From NCBI GenBank assembly GCA_015956445.1, contig WIUZ02000007.1, positions 806,001 through 870,000 on the forward strand: a stretch of DNA of 64,000 nt, read 5' to 3'. A model generated the notes under the pieces. That model made no database searches. It saw nothing but the letters and a program-made list of their open reading frames with translations, and was not told the origin of the DNA. The translations under genes were made by a program, and so were the position numbers. Position 1 is the stretch's first letter. Each line of letters starts with the position of its first letter. The DNA comes from Thelephora terrestris (Eukaryota; Basidiomycota; Agaricomycetes; Thelephorales; Thelephoraceae). This document shows positions 11,088 to 62,958 of the stretch, one piece after another.

Positions 11088-14000
11088 ATGCCTGGCTTTC
11101 GAAAGAAGCCTTCCTCGTCGAACAGGCCGACGAACAGTCCACCGCCCGCGCCCGCCCCTTCGATTGTTGAAGATACAAATCAGGGGTCTACGACAATCCA
11201 TCCCATGGTCGAGGCACCTGTTGCATCGACAAGCAATATGCCTTTATCCCATTCTTCTATGTCTTGCGAGCCCACGGATACTGCGCTCGATGAACTTGGA
11301 ACATCTAAAGAGTCGCGCTGGGAGGTGGCATACGGAGCAGCGAAGATAGCCATTGAGATCGCTAACGCATCTTCCGATATGTTTTGCCCCCTTAAGGCAG
11401 TTGCGGGTGCCCTTTTTGTTCTCATAAAGAACTACGATGTAAGGTTTTCCCCAGCGTCTCGCCCGATCGAGCGTTGATTGTTTCTTGCAGCAAACCACCG
11501 CCAACGCGGAGCAGATCAGAGATATCAAGGAAAAGATCCAATCTCTCAGTGAGGTGCTCGCACCCCCTGCAGGCGACCAGGACAACGAGGAGAAAGCGCG
11601 GAGGAACGCCCTTGGAAAGTCTGTAACTTCTTTCCCTTTGACAAACTCTGGCGCATTTCTAAGTTACGTTGGATATTTGCAGGAAGTTGGCCAGGATAAT
11701 CGTGAAGCTTCAACCGCTCTCCGAGCAACGCGGGATCGTCAAGTTCTTGAGGAATGCTGACCACGCCAAAACCTTGAACGGCTTCGTCCAAGACCTGGCT
11801 TCTGCCGTGGCGGAGTACCAGGTGTGTGTACCAAACGCTGCCCCACGAACTGTCTAATGTTCCGGATAGATGTCTATGCAGCAAAACATCTACGGGAACA
11901 CAAGGAAGAATAGTGAAGGAATTCAAAACGTTTACGAGAACACAGAGAAGATTAGTGAAGATACCCAGAACATCACTGTGAGGCGGTTCGCAGAGTGGCA
12001 CCAGGTTTATTAGAAGACTAAGGTCGTCAATAGGATATCATGGACCTCGAGTTACTAAGCAAGTTATATCCCGTGCACGACGCCGGATACCAAGCTGGCC
12101 ATCACGATACCTGCCTCCCCGGGACCCGAGAGTCCGTCCTCGACGGGATAATGCGATGGGCCGGAAATCCACAAGACCGGCACATCTTCTGGCTCAACGG
12201 AGTGGCAGGAACGGGGAAGTCCACAATCGCCCAAACTTTTTCCGAAATAGCCGCAGAGGCCGGGACCTTCGGTGCCAGCTTTTTCTGCTCCCGGGATTAC
12301 CTCGACAGAAAGGAGCTCAAGAATATCTTTCCGACTCTCGCTTACCAACTCGCATGTCGGTACCCTGCGTTTCGAGGCCAGGTCACCCGGGTGCTCAAGC
12401 GGGACCCCTCCGTAGCACGGAACTCGCTCATGTATCAATTCAAAGACTTGATCGTGAACCCCCTCACCTCCACCAACATTCCATGCGTCATCGTCGTGGA
12501 CGCTCTGGATGAGTGCGCAGACAATGAACCCGCCTCGGCAATCCTCTCAGTCCTTGGTCGTTACGTCAAGAACCTACCATCAGTCAAGTTCTTCATCACT
12601 GGGAGGCCAGAACCTCGAATTCGGAGCGGATTTAGGCTCCCTCTCCTGGAACCAATCACCCAAATCTTCTTGCTGCACGAGGTTGAATTGTCCAGCGTCG
12701 ACGAGGATATCCGACTGTACCTCCAGGAGAAGCTTACCGCTGTCGCCAAACGGAGGAGTCACTTAAATATCTCCCACCCGTGGCCCTGCGATCACGACTT
12801 GACATTCCTCACCAAGAAGTCGTCGGGTCTCTTCATTTTTGCGTCAACACTTGCCAGATTTATCGAATCGGAGCATCACGAACCCAACGAACGCCTCCAG
12901 CTCATCATTAACCCGCCAGACCGCACTCTCCATGAGGGGCGAGCAGGAATCGACCCACTGTACACTCAGGTTCTACAGCTCGCGTTTTCGGGCATCACGG
13001 AGGCCGCAGTGTTCACGAACTTGAGAAAGGTTCTGGGCACAGTGATTTTGGCGTTTAACCCGTTGTCGCGTGACCAGGTTGCGAAGCTCCTTGACGTCAG
13101 CACACCCCTCATCGCGACGACCCTCCGGCATCTCCACTCGGTTCTTCTGGTCCCTGATGAAGATTCCAAGGAAATTCGCGTCTTCCATAAATCATTCCCA
13201 GACTTCCTTCAAGACTATAGCCGCTGTCCCGACCCAAAGTTCCTCATCGACACGCACAGTCATCATGGGGATATCGCGCTGAGCTGTTTGGAGTTGTTGA
13301 AGAGGTTGAAGCCGAATCCCTGCGATCTTCCGGACTACGTGATGAATCGGGATGTACCTAATCTTCCGGAACTTCTGGAGGATAAGGTGGGGGGTGCAAC
13401 ACGCTACGCATGCGGTTATTGGGCCATGCACCTCCGGTCTTCTCCAACCACGGGCCATTATGCTGTCCAGCTGATCGCCTCCGCAACCGAGTTGTTCAAT
13501 ACCAATGTCATCCAATGGATTGAGGTGATGAGCCTCGAGAACCGATTGGAAAGTGTAGTTCATAGCATCAACAATCTTTTCCAATGGTGTGGGATGGTGT
13601 GTATTCATATAAATGCCCCAGTCATCTATTGATCAGAATCAGGTCGATCTCTCTACCTCCAATTTGCATAACATAGCAGAAGACTACCTCCGATTTACGA
13701 AGAATTTCTTTCCCCTCATTCAGCAATCTGCGCCACACATATACCATTCCGCTCTACCGCTTTCACCGAGGTCATCCACGTTCCACCCCGTGATACTCTG
13801 GGAGAAAACACCCATCGCAGAATTTTATGGGCGTCCTGAAACTTGGGGGCCCGTCGTACAAACCATCCAAGGTGACCCCAGCAGTTTCACGTGCATGACC
13901 ACCCTCGGTCACTGGATCGCCGTGGCATGTACTGATGCCGTAGTGAGAATCTACGACACTGTCACAGGCGCACTGAGGCTGTCTCTGAGGTCCATAGATC

Positions 14001-15487
14001 CAGTCAAGGCGATGAGAGGTCCCTCCGATGGCTCCACCCTCTTCTGTGCGCACCAGGAGAATTTAGTAACCTTGTGGGATATCCAAACAGGCGGACTAAT
14101 CCATAGTTTCACCTTGATGGACGAGGTCCAAGACATCGCCGTCTCCTTGAAGGGACGCTACCTTGCCTGTAGGCTTTCCAACGGGTTCGTCAAGGTTTGG
14201 GGAGTTGTGGGAGAGGTACTAGTGGATGTTGCTATTCAGCCTGTCTCGCCGGGTGCCCGCTTATGTTGGTTGGAGCCAGAAGAACGGCTCGTAATCGCAG
14301 GGGGGACATCGGCGGCAATATGGAACATTGTTGCTGGAGAGATACTGCGCAGTTTCACAACTGTGAACACCATCTCTGGCGTGCTCTATTCTCAGGAACT
14401 TAACCGGTTGGCCGTCACCACTGAGGCACCATCCGGGGACACCGTCGTATTTATCGACCCTCAGACAGGGACATCCTCGGTTTTGTCTGGGGTTCAAGGA
14501 AAGCTATCTTGTTTCGCCTTCTCCAGAACAAGCGAGGAGCTTATGTGCGGTACGCGGGGACACGGACTGAAGGCGTTCAGCTTTTCCACACGACGTTGGA
14601 GGTGCCTCAAACCCTCAGACACTACGACATTTGTCTCCTCCCTGCCAAATGGAACCATAGCAGCAGCGTCTGTACGCTCCGGTATCCAGTTATTGGGCCT
14701 GGACGACGGACACGCCTCACCTCCGGAGTTGGCTCCTACACGTGACGTATGGATCCTCGACCAAGGCAGAATCATCGTTATCGTTCCGATTACCCGCCAC
14801 CACATCGAATTACTGGAAACATCCTCCATGTCCCAACTTTCCGCAATTCCTATTCAAGACACCCCTACGATTCCCGCCAACATTCCCACCGTCCTTTCTG
14901 CCTCGCTCGAAAACCGCGTTGTGGTTTATTGTTTCAAAGCGGGGGAGAACGTACACCTGCACCTGCGCAAGTTTGGCTACACACTTCCGAAATGGATCGT
15001 GAAAATAAACCGACTGCCATCGGCTTGTGGGATCTCGCCAACCGGCACCCGGCTCGTGACCTTCCACAACGCGGAGCGCGCGACACGGATCTCTGTGCGG
15101 GATGCAAAGAATGGACAACTCCAGGCGGAGCTTCTAGTTAATCAAGCCTACTCCTTGCCCCCCGACATCACATTCGACTCGGAGACACGATTCTACTCTC
15201 TCCACGGCCCCTACCGCGTTTCCTACGATCTCGACTTCTCGTCCAGGGCGGACACTACCCGCCCCGTCATCCATCACGAACGGCAACCCTGGACCGCGGA
15301 ATCCAGCCAGAGGCAACGAGATGTGGACAGTAGTCACGAATGGGTCGTCAGTGGTTCGGAAAGGATTTGCTGGATCCCACCGGGTTATATCAGGTCGACC
15401 CAGGGTGGCTATTGTTGGGCCGGGTCCGATACGCTTGTAACGGTTGACGAGGATGGAACGTTAAGGATGCTAACCTTTCGCTCGTAG
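11088..15487 (+). CDS. NACHT/STAND NTPase with C-terminal propeller-like region (NLR-like), 1377 aa
   Basis: Six exons join in frame: 11088-11438, 11491-11618, 11683-11821, 11870-11977, 12034-13596, 13643-15487. The protein has a Ser/Pro-rich start and a helical N-terminal domain (about 85-240, with AKIAIEIANASSDMFCPLKA and QIRDIKEKIQSLSEVL) that includes an Asn/Glu repeat (IYGNTRKNSEGIQ, VYENTEKISEDTQ). A NACHT module follows: Walker A GVAGTGKST (about 298-306) and Walker B CVIVVDALDEC (about 393-403), then winged-helix-like sequence (FHKSFPDFLQD). The last about 600 residues contain blades such as RIYDTVTGALRLSL and TLWDIQTGGLIHSF, which suggest a diverged WD40-type propeller. Fungal STAND proteins of this plan act in non-self recognition and programmed cell death. 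No HET, patatin or other classic effector domain is seen at the N-terminus. Every splice keeps phase and no stop interrupts it, so the gene looks intact. Confidence 0.92.
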
Positions 15488-55716: not shown

Positions 55717-58686
55717 ATGACCTTAGGTGTGCTCTGGCCCATTCCCCCAATGGATCCCCCCGAATCCGACCCCCCGGCGGGCACTTGTATGTGTGCAAAG
55801 TGCACGCTATACTCACCTAGTGGCAAGGTGGTCTCGAGAAGGACGTGGTATCGCCATAATCCTGGTGGAAAGAAAGCCCAGTACGGCGATCTTACGACTG
55901 GGCGGACGCAAGCAAACAATAGGGTATCCGACGTCCAGGAAGTCCCTCTACTTAACAGAAGGGCACGGAAGCGACGTCGTCTGGGAATTGAAGAAGTCGA
56001 AGTTACCCCGCATACATCTAACCGAGCCGCGGGGTCGGGATCAGTAAGCGTGATCACACTGGATATATGCGCCTCAAAAACACGATACTCATAGTACAAT
56101 ACATATAGAGTGCTCAAAACCGTATGGAAGTTACTCCTGGGCGTGAAACGTCCCCAGAAATCCCCCCTCCTGCCCCTACGCCCGAGCTTGAGCTTGAAAA
56201 TTCCGAATTACCTCCTCCGATCCCAGGCCCTCCCATCGACGAAAACACCAACCTAGACTCTCCTCCTCCTCCCCCCTGCCGGTCTGAGGGTGAAGATTTT
56301 GACGAAGAAGATCCTTTGCTCCTTGGCTCGGACGAAGAACCCATCCCTCCACCTGAAACCGAGGAAAATCTACCCAGCGACAGCGACAGCGACGACGAGT
56401 TGAACATTACTCTGGAAAGCATGAAAACGAATTTCCAGTTTGTCCAGATGGTCAGGGAGGCGACCCTGGGTACCAGGTTCAGTCCGACTGAACTTCACTC
56501 GTTTCGGAACCCTCAAGGGTCTCGATTTATTCCTTCTGAGGACCCGGATCTCCGCCTATCTATAAAATTCTATATGTCGACACTGGACCATCTTACCTCT
56601 CAGAGGGCTTATGCTGAGGCCCGTGAGGACGTCCTGGAACGCTATCCCGATTCTGGAATGCTTTCGTACGATCAGGTCAAGCGAAGGGTATCTAATCTAT
56701 CTGGGGTACTCACTTGGAAGGACCACATGTGTGTTGACTCTTGTGCAGCTTTCACTGGTCCGTTTGCTCAACTGGAGCATTGTCCTCGCTGTCAAAAACC
56801 TCGGTACGACGAAGAGCAGCTGCGGAGGTCTGGCGGCAAAACCAAGGTGCCCAGGAAGGTCTTCACAACCTTTCCGGTCGGCCCACAGCTCCAGGCCTGT
56901 TGGGGAAACCCCCAAACGGCCGAAAAGATGCTCTACCGCCGTAACAAGATGAGGGAACTACTGGAGAAGCGGACTCGAGGTGAAGACTTTGTTTACGACG
57001 ATATCTACTGTGGATCGGACTACCTGGACGCCGTCGAAAACGGCACAATAAAGGACTACGACTCGGTCGTTATGTTCTCAATAGACGGCGCCCAGCTTTA
57101 CCGCAATAAAAAATTGGACTGCTGGATCTATATTTGGATTATCCTCGACCTCGCGCCGGATCAACGCTACAAGATACGCAATATACTTCCTGGCGGCATT
57201 ATCCCTGGCCCGAAAAACCCCAAACACCTCGACTCCTTCCTCTTTCCAGGTCTGGCGCACGCTTCTGCTATCCAGAAGGAAGGGATGCGAATTTGGGATG
57301 GCTTCAACAAAGTCGAAGCCGACTCCTTCCTCTTCCTCCTCCTGATCCTTATGGACGCCATCACTGCGGCTGATGTCAGTGGCGCTGTTGGACATCATGG
57401 TAGGAAGGGCTGCCGGGTTTTTTGTGGACTTGCAGGCCGCAATAAACCCGGCGGACCTCATTACTATCCGGTCCTACTCCGGCCTCTGGATTCAGATCAC
57501 CCCGGATCTAATCACACTGACATCGACATCAACAGTTTACCCGACGCCGGTACGTCATCATATCGAGAAGATCTCAATGAAGTCCTCGCTTCGCCCAATG
57601 CACCCGAATACCGGAGGCGACGTCTCGAGACTGGGATCAGGAAAGCTAGTCTTTTCTACGGACTCTCTCGGATCCTCAAGGTACCTACCTGTTTCCCTGG
57701 CGACATAATGCACCAGCCAGTGATTAATCTAACGGGCCTGATGTTCGAGCTGTGGTGCGAGAAGGAGAATTGTCGGAAGGGAGATAAATCTTCCGAAGTC
57801 TGGGACTGGGCTACCTTGAAAGGCGACGTCTGGAAGGCTCACGGCAGGGCCGTTGCAGCCGCTGCACCCTACTTCCCCCGTTCCTACGACCGTACGCCTT
57901 GGAATCCGGCCGAAAAGCTCTCGAGTGGCTATAAAGCTTGGGAGCTACTTGTATATTTCTATGGACTCGGACCCGGGCTATTCTACGGAATCCTCCCAGA
58001 GGTGTATTACCAACACTACTGCAAGCTCGTGATCGGTATCCGGATAATCTACCAACGCCAGATCTCTCCCGAGCAGCTAAAACTCGCCTATCAAAATCTT
58101 CTCGAGTGGGTCGCCGAATTCGAGGTACTCTACTATCGCAGGAAAACGGAACGCCTCCATTTTGTTTGACAATGTGTCCACTCTCTCGTCCATCTCGTTC
58201 CCGAAACGGTTCGCATTGGACCTCCCTCCCTATCGGCTCAATGGACGATGGAGCGCGTAATCGGGGTTTTTGGCTCGCTGATCAAGCAGCCCTCTAATCC
58301 GTTCGACAACCTCAGCGAACAGGCAAAAAAAGTCGCGGAGGTCAACGCAATCATCTCCATGTGGCCCTCTCTCGAACGGACGACGAAGGATCCCAGAGGT
58401 TCCATCGATATCGGCGCCGGCTATATGTTACTTGGGCCTAAAGATACACGGCCTTACCGCCCTTCCAACAACGAAGATATGGCGCTCAACAATTTCTATT
58501 CTAGTCTAACAGACGTCCCAAGAAGATCAATCTACCGGTGGGCAAGACTAAGCATTCCCACAGGCCAGATCGCACGCTCCTATTGGAAAGAGGTCATCCG
58601 CACTTCGAATGGCGCCCAGACGGATCGCAACATTAAGGTACGCGATTTGATCACGGTTACGTTTGGATATTAACGCGGATGATGTT

Positions 58687-58693
58687 ATTGTAG
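58687..58693 (+). repeat. Target-site duplication, left copy (ATTGTAG)
   Basis: Exact 7-bp match to 62952-62958, directly abutting the palindrome. It is also the 3' end of the ancestral 56-bp intron, so its AG is the original splice acceptor. Confidence 0.88.
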
Positions 58694-58785
58694 CAGTAGT
58701 CCTTATCATAATTGTGTACAATTTACTGCCAGATCTCGTAAAATTGTAATACTTTAACTCGTAGCGATTACAATGCTCAATGGCA

Positions 58786-58848
58786 TTGCAATGCTGCCTG
58801 TGGCAGTTGCAATGCTGCCTGTGGCAGTTGTAATGCTGCCTGTGGCAG
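58786..58848 (+). repeat. Three 21-bp tandem repeats, left arm
   Basis: Units of TTGCAATGCTGCCTGTGGCAG; the third begins TTGTAAT instead. Mirrored at 62797-62859. Confidence 0.85.
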
Positions 58849-58916
58849 TTGCAATACCAGCTGCTCGGTACTCCTGATTAGGCAGGAGCCGACAATGTGG
58901 TAGCACCGAGTGACTG

Positions 58917-59430
58917 GGTGTGCTTATATAAGTGAGTCATGTGATTTTTCCAAAAAAGGAAATTTTGATGGCTTATATAAGCAGGTCAGGTGACTGAAAA
59001 AAGTGGGAGTTGCTGATGTAAGCAGATCATGTGACTGACTAAAAAAGGAAATTTTTGATGGCTTACATAAGCGACTTGAAAATGATTTTGGCATTGAATT
59101 TCCCAAAGAGGAAATTTTGATGGCTGACATAAGCAGGTCATGTGACTGAAAAAAGTGGGTGTTGCTTATGTAATCAGGTCATGTGACCGTCCAAAAAAGG
59201 AAAGTTTTGATGGCTTACATAAGCGTCTCAAAATTGCTTTTGGAGGGGTCTTTCCTAAAAAGGAAATTCCTTTTTAGGAAATATTTGATGGATTACCAAA
59301 AAAGGAAATTTTGATGGCTTACATAAGCAGCTCAAAAATGCTTTTCACAAAAATTACCGAAAAAGGAAATTTCCTTTTTGGGAAAGAGTTTCCAAAAAAG
59401 GAAATTTTGATGGCTTACATGAGCAACTCA
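58917..59430 (+). repeat. Irregular tandem repeats with TGATGGCTTACATAAGC core, left arm
   Basis: Six copies of TGATGGCTKACATAAGC-like cores spaced about 60-100 bp apart, alternating with GGTCATGTGACTG and runs of AAAAAAGGAAA. Mirrored at about 62215-62728. Confidence 0.8.
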
Positions 59431-59814
59431 AAAATGATTTTGGCAAAAATTACCAAAAAAGGAAATTATATGCCAGAAAAATCGGAAAAATGCCAGAAAA
59501 ATCTTAAAAAATACCGAAAAAATTCCCACAGGTCTAGAAAGTGCCCAAAATGGTAAATTACTCCCAGAAATATCCAGAAAATTGTTTTTCTGGCTGGAAA
59601 AATCATGAAAAATTCCAGAATATAGATAAATATTTTATAAAAATTATTTCAATTTTTTTGGTCCATTGAATAGCCCATAATTGTAATATTAATATATTTT
59701 TTGCCCAAAAAATTCAGAAAAATCCCAAAAAAATAAATCAAAATAGGAAAATACAAATATATCCATAATATTCATTATATCATGAAGTACAGACCAGTTT
59801 GTGGTCATAAACTA

Positions 59815-60232
59815 GCCCTAAACCTAGTCCTGGACCTAACCTAACCTAACCTAGCCTAACTCTAGCCCTAACCCTAACCCTAACCTAGACCTAAACCTAC
59901 ACCTAACCTAACACTAAACCCAACCTAACCCTAACCTAACCTAACCTAACCTAACCTAAACCTAACCTAACCTAACCTTAACCTAACCTAACCCAACCTA
60001 ACCTAACCTAACCCAACCTAACCTAACCTAACCCAACCTAACCTAACCTAACCCAACCTAACCTAACCCAACCTAACCTAACCTAACCTAAACCTAACCT
60101 TAACCTAACCTAACCTAACCTAACCTAACCCCAAACCTAACCTGCCCTATATCCAGCCTGCCCTAAACCTAACCTAGCACCAAACCTAAACCTAAACCTA
60201 AACCTAAACCTAACCTGCCCTAAACCTAACTC
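59815..60232 (+). repeat. Telomere-like (CCTAA)n array, left arm
   Basis: About 420 bp of mostly CCTAA/CCTAAC pentamers with a few true CCCTAA hexamers (about 59866-59885) and CCTAAA hexamers. The C-rich strand reads 5'-3' from the outer side, as at a natural left chromosome end. Confidence 0.9.
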
Positions 60233-60254
60233 TGACCTGGCCTAGTTCAGCCTT

Positions 60255-60283
60255 GTCTTATCTTATCTTATCTTATCTTATCT

Positions 60284-60314
<31 letters not shown>

Positions 60315-60325
60315 TCTTATCCTGT
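60255..60325 (+). repeat. (TCTTA)n microsatellite, left arm
   Basis: About 12 near-perfect pentamers; mirrored at 61302-61372. Confidence 0.9.
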
Positions 60326-60778
60326 CTTACCTACCCTAGACCCAACCTAACCTGACATAGTCAACTTAGCCTAGTCCACCACAGATCACCCAACCTAACC
60401 TAAAGTGGTTCACCTGACCTAGACTGATGCAACTTGAGTTTATCTCTTCTAATCAGCTGTAATCTTATCTGGCCTTAATCCAAATACCGTAGCTAACCAA
60501 CATCTAACCCAACTTCACCTGGCTCACCAGCAAGTAACTGGGCTACAGGAACACACTGTGAGCTGCACTATCCCATATCCTGTATCCAACTGTCACTCAA
60601 ACACAAGAACTGTGGTGGACCTACAAGTTAGTGGACCCATAAGCCCACAGACCCACAAGTATAGGCTGCTCACTCAGTGGAGACATCTGTTATCCAACCT
60701 CACCCACGTACCACCCTCACCCTGTGTTCTGTGCCAGAGTGCAACTTCACCCACAGCTCAAGTTCAACCACCTGGCTG

Positions 60779-60849
60779 AACCTGCAAGTCAGGTTGATAG
60801 ACTGTTGGTTATGGATCCATGGATTTGTAGACCTGATTGTACATGGGTT
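60779..60849. other. Spacer (loop) of the palindrome
   Basis: About 70 bp where the arms stop matching. It contains the small palindrome ATGGATCCAT near 60811-60820. Confidence 0.75.
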
Positions 60850-61301
60850 TAGCCAGGTAGTTGAACTTGAGCTGTGGTGAAGTTGCACTCTGGCACAGAA
60901 CACAGGATGAGGGTGGTACGTGGGTGAGGTTGGATAACAGATGTCTCCACTGAGTGAGCAGCCTATACTTGTGGGTCTGTGGGCTTATGGGTCCACTAAC
61001 TTGTAGGTCCACCACAGTTCTTGTGTTTGAGTGACAGTTGGATACAGGATATGGGATAGTGCAGCTCACAGTGTGTTCCTGTAGCCCAGTTACTTGCTGG
61101 TGAGCCAGGTGAAGTTGGGTTAGATGTTGGTTAGCTACGGTATTTGGATTAAGGCCAGATAAGATTACAGCTGATTAGAAGAGATAAACTCAAGTTGCAT
61201 CAGTCTAGGTCAGGTGAACCACTTTAGGTTAGGTTGGGTGATCTGTGGTGGACTAGGCTAAGTTGACTATGTCAGGTTAGGTTGGGTCTAGGGTAGGTAA
61301 G

Positions 61302-61312
61302 ACAGGATAAGA

Positions 61313-61343
<31 letters not shown>

Positions 61344-61372
61344 AGATAAGATAAGATAAGATAAGACAAGGC
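61302..61372 (-). repeat. (TCTTA)n microsatellite, right arm
   Basis: Mirror copy of 60255-60325, read as TAAGA on the plus strand. Confidence 0.9.
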
Positions 61373-61394
61373 TGAACTAGGCCAGGTCAGAGTT

Positions 61395-61830
61395 AGGTTT
61401 AGGGCAGGTTAGGTTTAGATGTAGGTTTAGGTTTAGGTTTAGGTTTAGGTTTAGGTTTGGTGCTAGGTTAGGTTTAGGGCAGGCTGGATATAGGGCAGGT
61501 TAGGTTTGGGGTTAGGTTAGGTTAGGTTAGGTTAGGTTAAGGTTAGGTTTAGGTTAGGTTAGGTTAGGTTGGGTTAGGTTAGGTTAGGTTGGGTTAGGTT
61601 AGGTTAGGTTGGGTTAGGTTAGGTTAGGTTGGGTTAGGTTAGGTTAGGTTGGGTTAGGTTAGGTTAAGGTTAGGTTAGGTTAGGTTTAGGTTAGGTTAGG
61701 TTAGGTTAGGTTAGGGTTAGGTTGGGTTTAGTGTTAGGTTAGGTGTAGGTTTAGGTCTAGGTTAGGGTTAGGGTTAGGGCTAGAGTTAGGCTAGGTTAGG
61801 TTAGGTTAGGTCCAGGACTAGGTTTAGGGC
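61395..61830 (-). repeat. Telomere-like (TTAGG)n array, right arm
   Basis: Mirror of 59815-60232 with 18 extra bases. The G-rich strand points outward (rightward), as at a natural right chromosome end. Confidence 0.9.
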
Positions 61831-62796
61831 TAGTTTATGACCACAAACTGGTCTGTACTTCATGATATAATGAATATTATGGATATATTTGTATTTTCCT
61901 ATTTTGATTTATTTTTTTGGGATTTTTCTGAATTTTTTGGGCAAAAAATATATTAATATTACAATTATGGGCTATTCAATGGACCAAAAAAATTGAAATA
62001 ATTTTTATAAAATATTTATCTATATTCTGGAATTTTTCATGATTTTTCCAGCCAGAAAAACAATTTTCTGGATATTTCTGGGAGTAATTTACCATTTTGG
62101 GCACTTTCTAGACCTGTGGGAATTTTTTCGGTATTTTTTAAGATTTTTCTGGCATTTTTCCGATTTTTCTGGCATATAATTTCCTTTTTTGGTAATTTTT
62201 GCCAAAATCATTTTTGAGTTGCTCATGTAAGCCATCAAAATTTCCTTTTTTGGAAACTCTTTCCCAAAAAGGAAATTTCCTTTTTCGGTAATTTTTGTGA
62301 AAAGCATTTTTGAGCTGCTTATGTAAGCCATCAAAATTTCCTTTTTTGGTAATCCATCAAATATTTCCTAAAAAGGAATTTCCTTTTTAGGAAAGACCCC
62401 TCCAAAAGCAATTTTGAGACGCTTATGTAAGCCATCAAAACTTTCCTTTTTTGGACGGTCACATGACCTGATTACATAAGCAACACCCACTTTTTTCAGT
62501 CACATGACCTGCTTATGTCAGCCATCAAAATTTCCTCTTTGGGAAATTCAATGCCAAAATCATTTTCAAGTCGCTTATGTAAGCCATCAAAAATTTCCTT
62601 TTTTAGTCAGTCACATGATCTGCTTACATCAGCAACTCCCACTTTTTTCAGTCACCTGACCTGCTTATATAAGCCATCAAAATTTCCTTTTTTGGAAAAA
62701 TCACATGACTCACTTATATAAGCACACCCAGTCACTCGGTGCTACCACATTGTCGGCTCCTGCCTAATCAGGAGTACCGAGCAGCTGGTATTGCAA

Positions 62797-62859
62797 CTGC
62801 CACAGGCAGCATTACAACTGCCACAGGCAGCATTGCAACTGCCACAGGCAGCATTGCAA
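62797..62859 (-). repeat. Three 21-bp tandem repeats, right arm
   Basis: Mirror copy of 58786-58848. Confidence 0.85.
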
Positions 62860-62951
62860 TGCCATTGAGCATTGTAATCGCTACGAGTTAAAGTATTACA
62901 ATTTTACGAGATCTGGCAGTAAATTGTACACAATTATGATAAGGACTACTG

Positions 62952-62958
62952 ATTGTAG
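62952..62958 (+). repeat. Target-site duplication, right copy (ATTGTAG)
   Basis: Exact duplicate of 58687-58693. Its AG lies immediately before the transposase's last exon (GTCCTC...), so the splice acceptor is restored on the exon side of the insertion. Confidence 0.88.

Follow-up and report, generated by a model that had tools for sequence, protein, structure and literature searches.

A near-perfectly palindromic foldback transposon family carrying telomere-like arrays in Thelephora terrestris, with a likely KDZ partner

The DNA analyzed here, referred to below as the window, is a stretch of 64,000 bp from the agaricomycete Thelephora terrestris (G000:C58:806001-870000, from a 40.6-Mb assembly of 60 contigs), and coordinates given without a contig or locus name are window positions. 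It contains a palindrome of 4258 bp (58694-62951) that has CAGTAGTCC at its left end and GGACTACTG at its right end, and which an earlier note had taken to be a mobile element. When aligned with its own reverse complement the element is 97.8% identical over 4290 columns. The left arm (58694-60782, + strand) and the right arm (60846-62951, - strand) are separated by a non-palindromic loop of 63 bp (60783-60845, no strand assigned). The outer 1375 bp of the two arms (58694-60068 and 61577-62951, mirrored) contain no mismatch; the arms differ only by indels of 5, 18 and 5 bp within the tandem arrays and by a small number of changes next to the loop. The arms are therefore the almost base-for-base mirror images that had been described. 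From the outside to the center each arm consists of a unique end, subterminal 21-bp tandem repeats (58781-58855, + strand, and 62790-62864, - strand), a repeat module with AAAAAGGAAATTTTGATGG (58947-59467, + strand, and 62178-62698, - strand), a degenerate telomere-like array (59834-60230, 397 bp, + strand, with the C-rich strand toward the center, and 61392-61811, 420 bp, - strand), a (CTTAT)n array (60252-60329, + strand, and 61298-61370, - strand) and a unique inner part. The element is flanked by exact copies of the 7-bp sequence ATTGTAG (58687-58693 and 62952-62958, both + strand), the target-site duplication that the earlier note had recognized. Long inverted repeats make up most of the element and tandem-repeat modules lie inside them, which is the architecture of a foldback transposon.

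The left arm gave at least 187 matches across the genome. Facing pairs of CAGTAGTCCTTAT ends numbered 56, of which 44 had the end variant CAGTAGTCCTTATTAR, 11 had CAGTAGTCCTTATCAT and one had CAGTAGTCCTTATG, and there were also unpaired ends of each variant (12, 2 and 3, respectively). We read 39 of the 56 pairs whole and assigned them to subfamilies A (11 elements, including the window copy), B (20 elements) and C (8 elements). Outside these 39 are 16 pairs together with the pair at C60:1223304, and five of the unread pairs span more than 6 kb (C23:645573, C56:1986918, C59:930941, C59:1544967 and C60:500118). Exact 7-bp duplications flanked 18 of the 39 elements, each of the 18 having a different sequence, and that of element L043 was 8 bp; by our arithmetic, about 0.002 such exact matches would arise by chance in a set of 39 elements. 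Copies with the same ends but different 7-bp duplications were the proof of mobility that had been proposed at the outset, to be sought by BLASTN. Empty sites were also found. At a paralogous site (C10:707011-707446) the joined flanks of the window copy align uninterrupted, with 94% identity over 436 of 436 bases, across a single ATTGTAG, and empty counterparts of the L053 insertion were located in a repeat common to L019 and L022. Dispersed copies having shared ends, their own duplications and empty sites constitute a mobile family. Hence the window element is, as had been surmised, a non-autonomous DNA transposon, specifically a member of a foldback family of modular, almost perfect palindromes.

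Reciprocal exchange of flanks was considered as the cause of the missing duplications and rejected. When all flanks were compared across the 39 elements, 18 duplication matches emerged, each within a single element, and no reciprocal flank partner was found among the 39 for the copies that lack a duplication. The same comparison also picked up the inverted flanks of L022 (see below).

The most valuable part of these data is the identity of the arms within each copy, ahead of the resemblance to telomeres. Outer arms of up to 1100 bp were compared and 33 of the 39 elements aligned over at least 80% of the length; L021, L023 and L024 were left out because they are rearranged or carry nested insertions, as were L031, L047 and L053 because their best aligned piece was too short. 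In 31 of the 33 elements an arm was closer to its own partner than to any arm of the other fetched elements, L030 and L033 being the two exceptions. The median identity was 99.91% between own arms versus 94.64% when the closest of the other fetched elements was taken (Wilcoxon p 1.1e-6, a value to be read with the proviso that the elements are not independent), and the own partner was the best match for 64 of 78 arms. When an L050 arm was used to query the whole genome, its own second arm ranked first at 99%, the next full-length arm was at 85%, and one shorter match reached 95% over 434 bases; in the top rows of that search 12 of the 15 other two-armed elements scored equally with both arms. 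Substitutions private to one element told the same story, 162 being mirrored in both arms versus 67 present in one arm (57:6 in subfamily A, 89:15 in B and 16:46 in C). This tally leaves out L021, L023 and L024 (broken) as well as L041 and L042 (too short), and without three outliers, L038 and L040 with their mirrored changes and L053 with its one-arm changes, the private substitutions were 57 mirrored versus 23 one-arm. The loop region aligned across 29 of the 39 fetched elements (three of the 29 have deletions in the loop), which argues that the palindromes were not made independently. The within-copy arm identity, the common loop and the mostly mirrored private substitutions imply either that one arm is converted by the other or that the palindrome is rebuilt. 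In the assembly the pattern is that the arms are usually kept nearly identical within a copy after the copies themselves have diverged. Arm-to-arm gene conversion seems the likely cause of this homogenization, in that one arm, folded against the other, could for example serve as the template for repairing a break or a stalled fork there.

The telomere-like arrays had been described as about 420 bp of (CCTAA)n per arm, which holds for their approximate length but not for their composition. Both arrays have a period of 5 with only 80-81% matches, and the units of the left array are mixed (CCTAA 31, ACCTAA 11, CCCAA 5, CCCTAA 3, plus rarer forms); thus the arrays are degenerate rather than clean (CCTAA)n. 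In the window element they lie over 1.1 kb inward from either end, and they are absent from seven of the 39 elements (L019, L021, which is rearranged, L027, L041, L042, L047 and L055). As L047 lacks the array yet has an intact duplication, the arrays are not needed for movement. In 30 of 30 unambiguous array-bearing elements the C-rich strand runs toward the center (L023 and L024 were not scorable), and thus a break in the loop would be expected to expose the wrong strand for telomerase. Exact 22-mers of the array had 2374 overlapping matches genome-wide, and the 100 matches listed comprised nine complete inverted array pairs, all in one orientation, three single arrays and one array covered in part. 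The units are mostly TAAC2, unlike the telomere of the agaricomycete Marasmius oreades, which is given as TAAC3-8 in the accessible portion of PMC8290104. Inverted CCTAA/TTAGG arrays are also present in three palindromes outside the CAGTAGTCC list (L083, L084 and L085, whose outer tandem repeats are 35 or 45 bp long, read without reaching the element ends), and a 22-bp motif is common to L083, the window element and L037. The array therefore belongs to a wider palindromic set. Judged from sequence, the arrays appear to be a dispensable internal module of the arms and not a functional telomere. No foldback element built on telomere-like arrays was found among the papers listed in searches of the open-licence literature, which agrees with the statement of the earlier note that none was known.

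A search for variant ends yielded an element of 10,006 bp (C60:1223304-1233309) that has the same 13-bp ends as the palindromes. Its inverted ends are identical at 50 of 50 bases in the part read, and it is flanked by the 7-bp duplication GGTATTG. Inside this C60 element are two matches to KDZ (Kyakuja-Dileera-Zisupton) transposases, one of E 3.3e-34 that contains no stop and one of E 4.2e-16. The C60 element is the best candidate for the transposase source, and the link is a good one, drawn from the 13 shared terminal bases, the length of the duplication and the presence of the gene. We suggest that a KDZ-superfamily (Kyakuja-like) transposase from such an autonomous relative would recognize the CAGTAGTCC ends, and that the same enzyme would excise the element and reinsert it with a 7-bp stagger. 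The five unread end pairs longer than 6 kb enclose none of the listed KDZ matches.

KDZ matches are spread over many contigs, and several of the 125 in the genome lie within about 15 kb of contig ends.

Several other elements were tried as autonomous partners and rejected. The Mutator-like element (MULE) domain in L019 belongs to a separate transposon nested there, which is bounded by GGACAG ends and by duplications of 9 bp. Two copies of this transposon were located (L019:1701-9254 and G000:C60:782844-789697), their duplications, read by eye, are AATTAAGTT (L019) and ATCACTATG (C60), and the genome has two PF10551 matches. The palindrome ends are thus without a MULE transposase having the same ends, and the palindrome duplications are 7 bp rather than the approximately 9 bp of a Mutator-like element. 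L021 contains a Copia polyprotein that looks like a nested insertion. L019 and L022 have in common a 2.9-kb repeat that is present at many other places and looks nested, as does a 3.3-kb insert common to L024, L025, L026 and L036 but found at different positions within them. The latter repeat has TGTCAGG-like ends (L024:385-3685, L025:1892-5193, L026:2443-5743 and L036:2131-5427) and perhaps prefers palindromic elements as targets.

Comparison with known systems draws on portions of the papers cited. The agaricomycete Kyakuja elements of the KDZ superfamily are similar in that Kyakuja-1_LB and Kyakuja-2_LB have 7-bp duplications and 5'-CA..TG-3' ends, but those two families lack inverted repeats (PMC12730594); both the duplication length and the CA..TG ends recur in the palindromes and in the C60 element, and a KDZ transposase lies in the large C60 element that shares its terminal 13 bp with the palindromes. 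The part of PMC12730594 at hand describes no foldback form of Kyakuja. Since inverted repeats are present here, as ends identical over at least 50 bp in the C60 element and as arms of about 2 kb in the palindromes, we call the family Kyakuja-like rather than a member of Kyakuja, and on this sequence evidence the palindromes are assigned as foldback transposons with a likely KDZ partner. The active Cryptococcus elements KDZ1-KDZ3 are about 9-11 kb, the size of the C60 element, and have inverted ends (PMC12810828). However, their duplications are 8 bp (KDZ1) or 4-8 bp (KDZ2 and KDZ3), their inverted repeats are 139-241 bp, and no palindromic derivatives are described in the accessible portion of that paper. 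No foldback or palindromic KDZ element was found among the papers listed in searches of the open-licence literature. Among foldback elements of other superfamilies, Drosophila Galileo (P superfamily) carries inverted repeats that are long and variable, duplicates 7 or 8 bp of its target and has been linked to chromosomal inversions, but it uses a P transposase and its duplications follow the consensus GTANTAC (PMC4168063, in part). Tm1 of root-knot nematodes (Mutator/foldback) has modular composite inverted repeats and non-autonomous copies alongside transposase-encoding copies, but differs in its 9-bp duplications and Mutator (Phantom) transposase (PMC3169594, in part), compared with 7 bp in this family, in which the sole MULE found is nested. 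Tetris of Drosophila virilis, proposed to be a Mutator foldback element, is non-autonomous and carries tandem repeats inside its arms, but its duplications are 8-10 bp and the portion of PMC4079207 at hand describes no telomere-like repeats.

Taken together, we consider it probable that the window element is a non-autonomous foldback transposon mobilized by a KDZ (Kyakuja-like) transposase, that its arms are homogenized within copies and that its arrays are dispensable. Several observations count against this explanation. As regards mobility, 20 of the 39 elements lack an exact duplication, among them L027, which is one base off. As regards homogenization, L030 and L033 are nearer to another element than to their own second arm, one-arm private changes exceed mirrored ones in subfamily C (44 of the 46 one-arm changes come from L053), and arm identity could be exaggerated by assembly or polishing. 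As regards the KDZ link, the weaker match in the C60 element (E 4.2e-16) has two in-frame stops, perhaps an intron, and a slice of that element (L093) gave a KDZ match of E 2.2e-5 and 24.7 bits, below the Pfam cut-off of 26.6. Apart from the shared ends, the slices read of the C60 element (1960 bases including flanks) did not resemble the palindromes at E 1e-3, and among the 56 end pairs a single one contains a listed KDZ match, the genome total being 125. Finally, the two Laccaria Kyakuja families are without terminal inverted repeats in the accessible portion of PMC12730594, whereas the elements described here are near-perfect palindromes.

An unlikely but serviceable account of the arms is that the palindrome is rebuilt from one arm at transposition through a self-folded or hairpin intermediate, rather than being corrected in place. 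The near identity of the arms in most copies and the recurrence of palindromes with the same loop would both follow. However, arms are equally identical with or without a duplication: the median was 100% in the 18 elements that have one and in 18 that do not (Mann-Whitney p 0.62), a comparison that drops L021, L023 and L024 and that, owing to free end gaps, undercounts differences and indels, as in L033. Moreover, in L022 the mirror identity extends 1552 bp into the flanks before dropping to about 95%, within inverted flank copies of at least 3.3 kb, and this would be beyond the reach of a transposition step unless the flanks are a misjoin. The L022 flanks may be the edge of a conversion tract, an inverted duplication or a misjoin of haplotypes.

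L022 is located together with L079 and L080 at G000:C16:587014-601275.

It is distinctly unlikely that another superfamily that makes 7-bp duplications, such as P (Galileo-like) or hAT7, moves the element and that the KDZ gene reflects coincidence of a short end motif. Galileo is a foldback-like P element with duplications of the fitting length (PMC4168063, in part), rust hAT7 elements also make 7-bp duplications (PMC12730594, in part), and the palindromes are tied to the KDZ element by 13 bp of end sequence only. Coincidence must contend with the rarity of the motif, since the 13-bp end followed by G or A at position 14 occurs five times in the genome and two of these occurrences are the two ends of the KDZ element, which has a 7-bp duplication. 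The P superfamily must also contend with the 19 duplications tallied, in which no GTANTAC-like consensus was seen although the length fits.

It seems to us improbable that the arm identity, the lack of duplications at some copies and the inverted L022 flanks are largely artefacts of assembly or polishing. Palindromes of this size are difficult to assemble, the L022 flanks resemble two haplotypes joined head to head (1552 bp identical, then about 95%), and the elements without a duplication have no reciprocal partner among the 39. Nevertheless, the window arms retain repeat-unit indels and loop-side differences, one-arm differences are retained in L029, L033, L045 and L053, the duplications and empty sites are intact, and an artefact cannot account for the palindromes themselves.

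Very improbable, in our judgment, is a class of palindromic transposon that keeps its arms identical by way of a self-folded or linear hairpin-like intermediate, with the inward-oriented telomere-like arrays serving to protect or copy that intermediate. Least credible is the proposal of the earlier note that the arms come from, or mimic, the end of a chromosome and serve as a telomere seed or as the ends of a linear extrachromosomal form: CCCTAA units are present in the left array, six of the 12 exact (TTAGGG)5 sites of the genome fall within listed end pairs of the palindrome family and the inward C-rich strand (the nine listed inverted pairs and all 30 elements scored) is that of a linear molecule with two telomeres, but the arrays are degenerate, internal and mostly of 5-bp units, they are missing from seven elements including one with an intact duplication, and no telomere repeat array was found in the terminal 500 bp of the 20 contig ends read (of 120). 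A chromosome-end origin, telomere seeding and a linear extrachromosomal form are all unsupported.

Near-perfect palindromes at the kilobase scale would be expected to be unstable. This genome nevertheless retains dozens of them, with arms that are mostly more alike within than between copies, and thus offers many natural replicates in which arm-to-arm repair can be tested. If the KDZ link is true, a further superfamily would join Mutator and P among the lineages that produce foldback elements. The family is also a caution that transposons can give rise to internal arrays resembling telomeres and to palindromes lacking a target duplication, both of which can mislead assembly.

Other features of the window are as follows. 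An open reading frame (ORF) about 0.5 kb upstream of the element (56124-58169) matches Transposase_21 (tnp2) at 26.5 bits, the Pfam cut-off being 28.6. An NLR-like pair at 12040-15484 is composed of a NACHT/NPHP3_N ORF followed by a WD40-repeat ORF. The window also has a glycoside hydrolase ORF, the product of which has its closest named relative in Thelephora ganbajun (74% identical) and is 96% identical to a metagenome protein.

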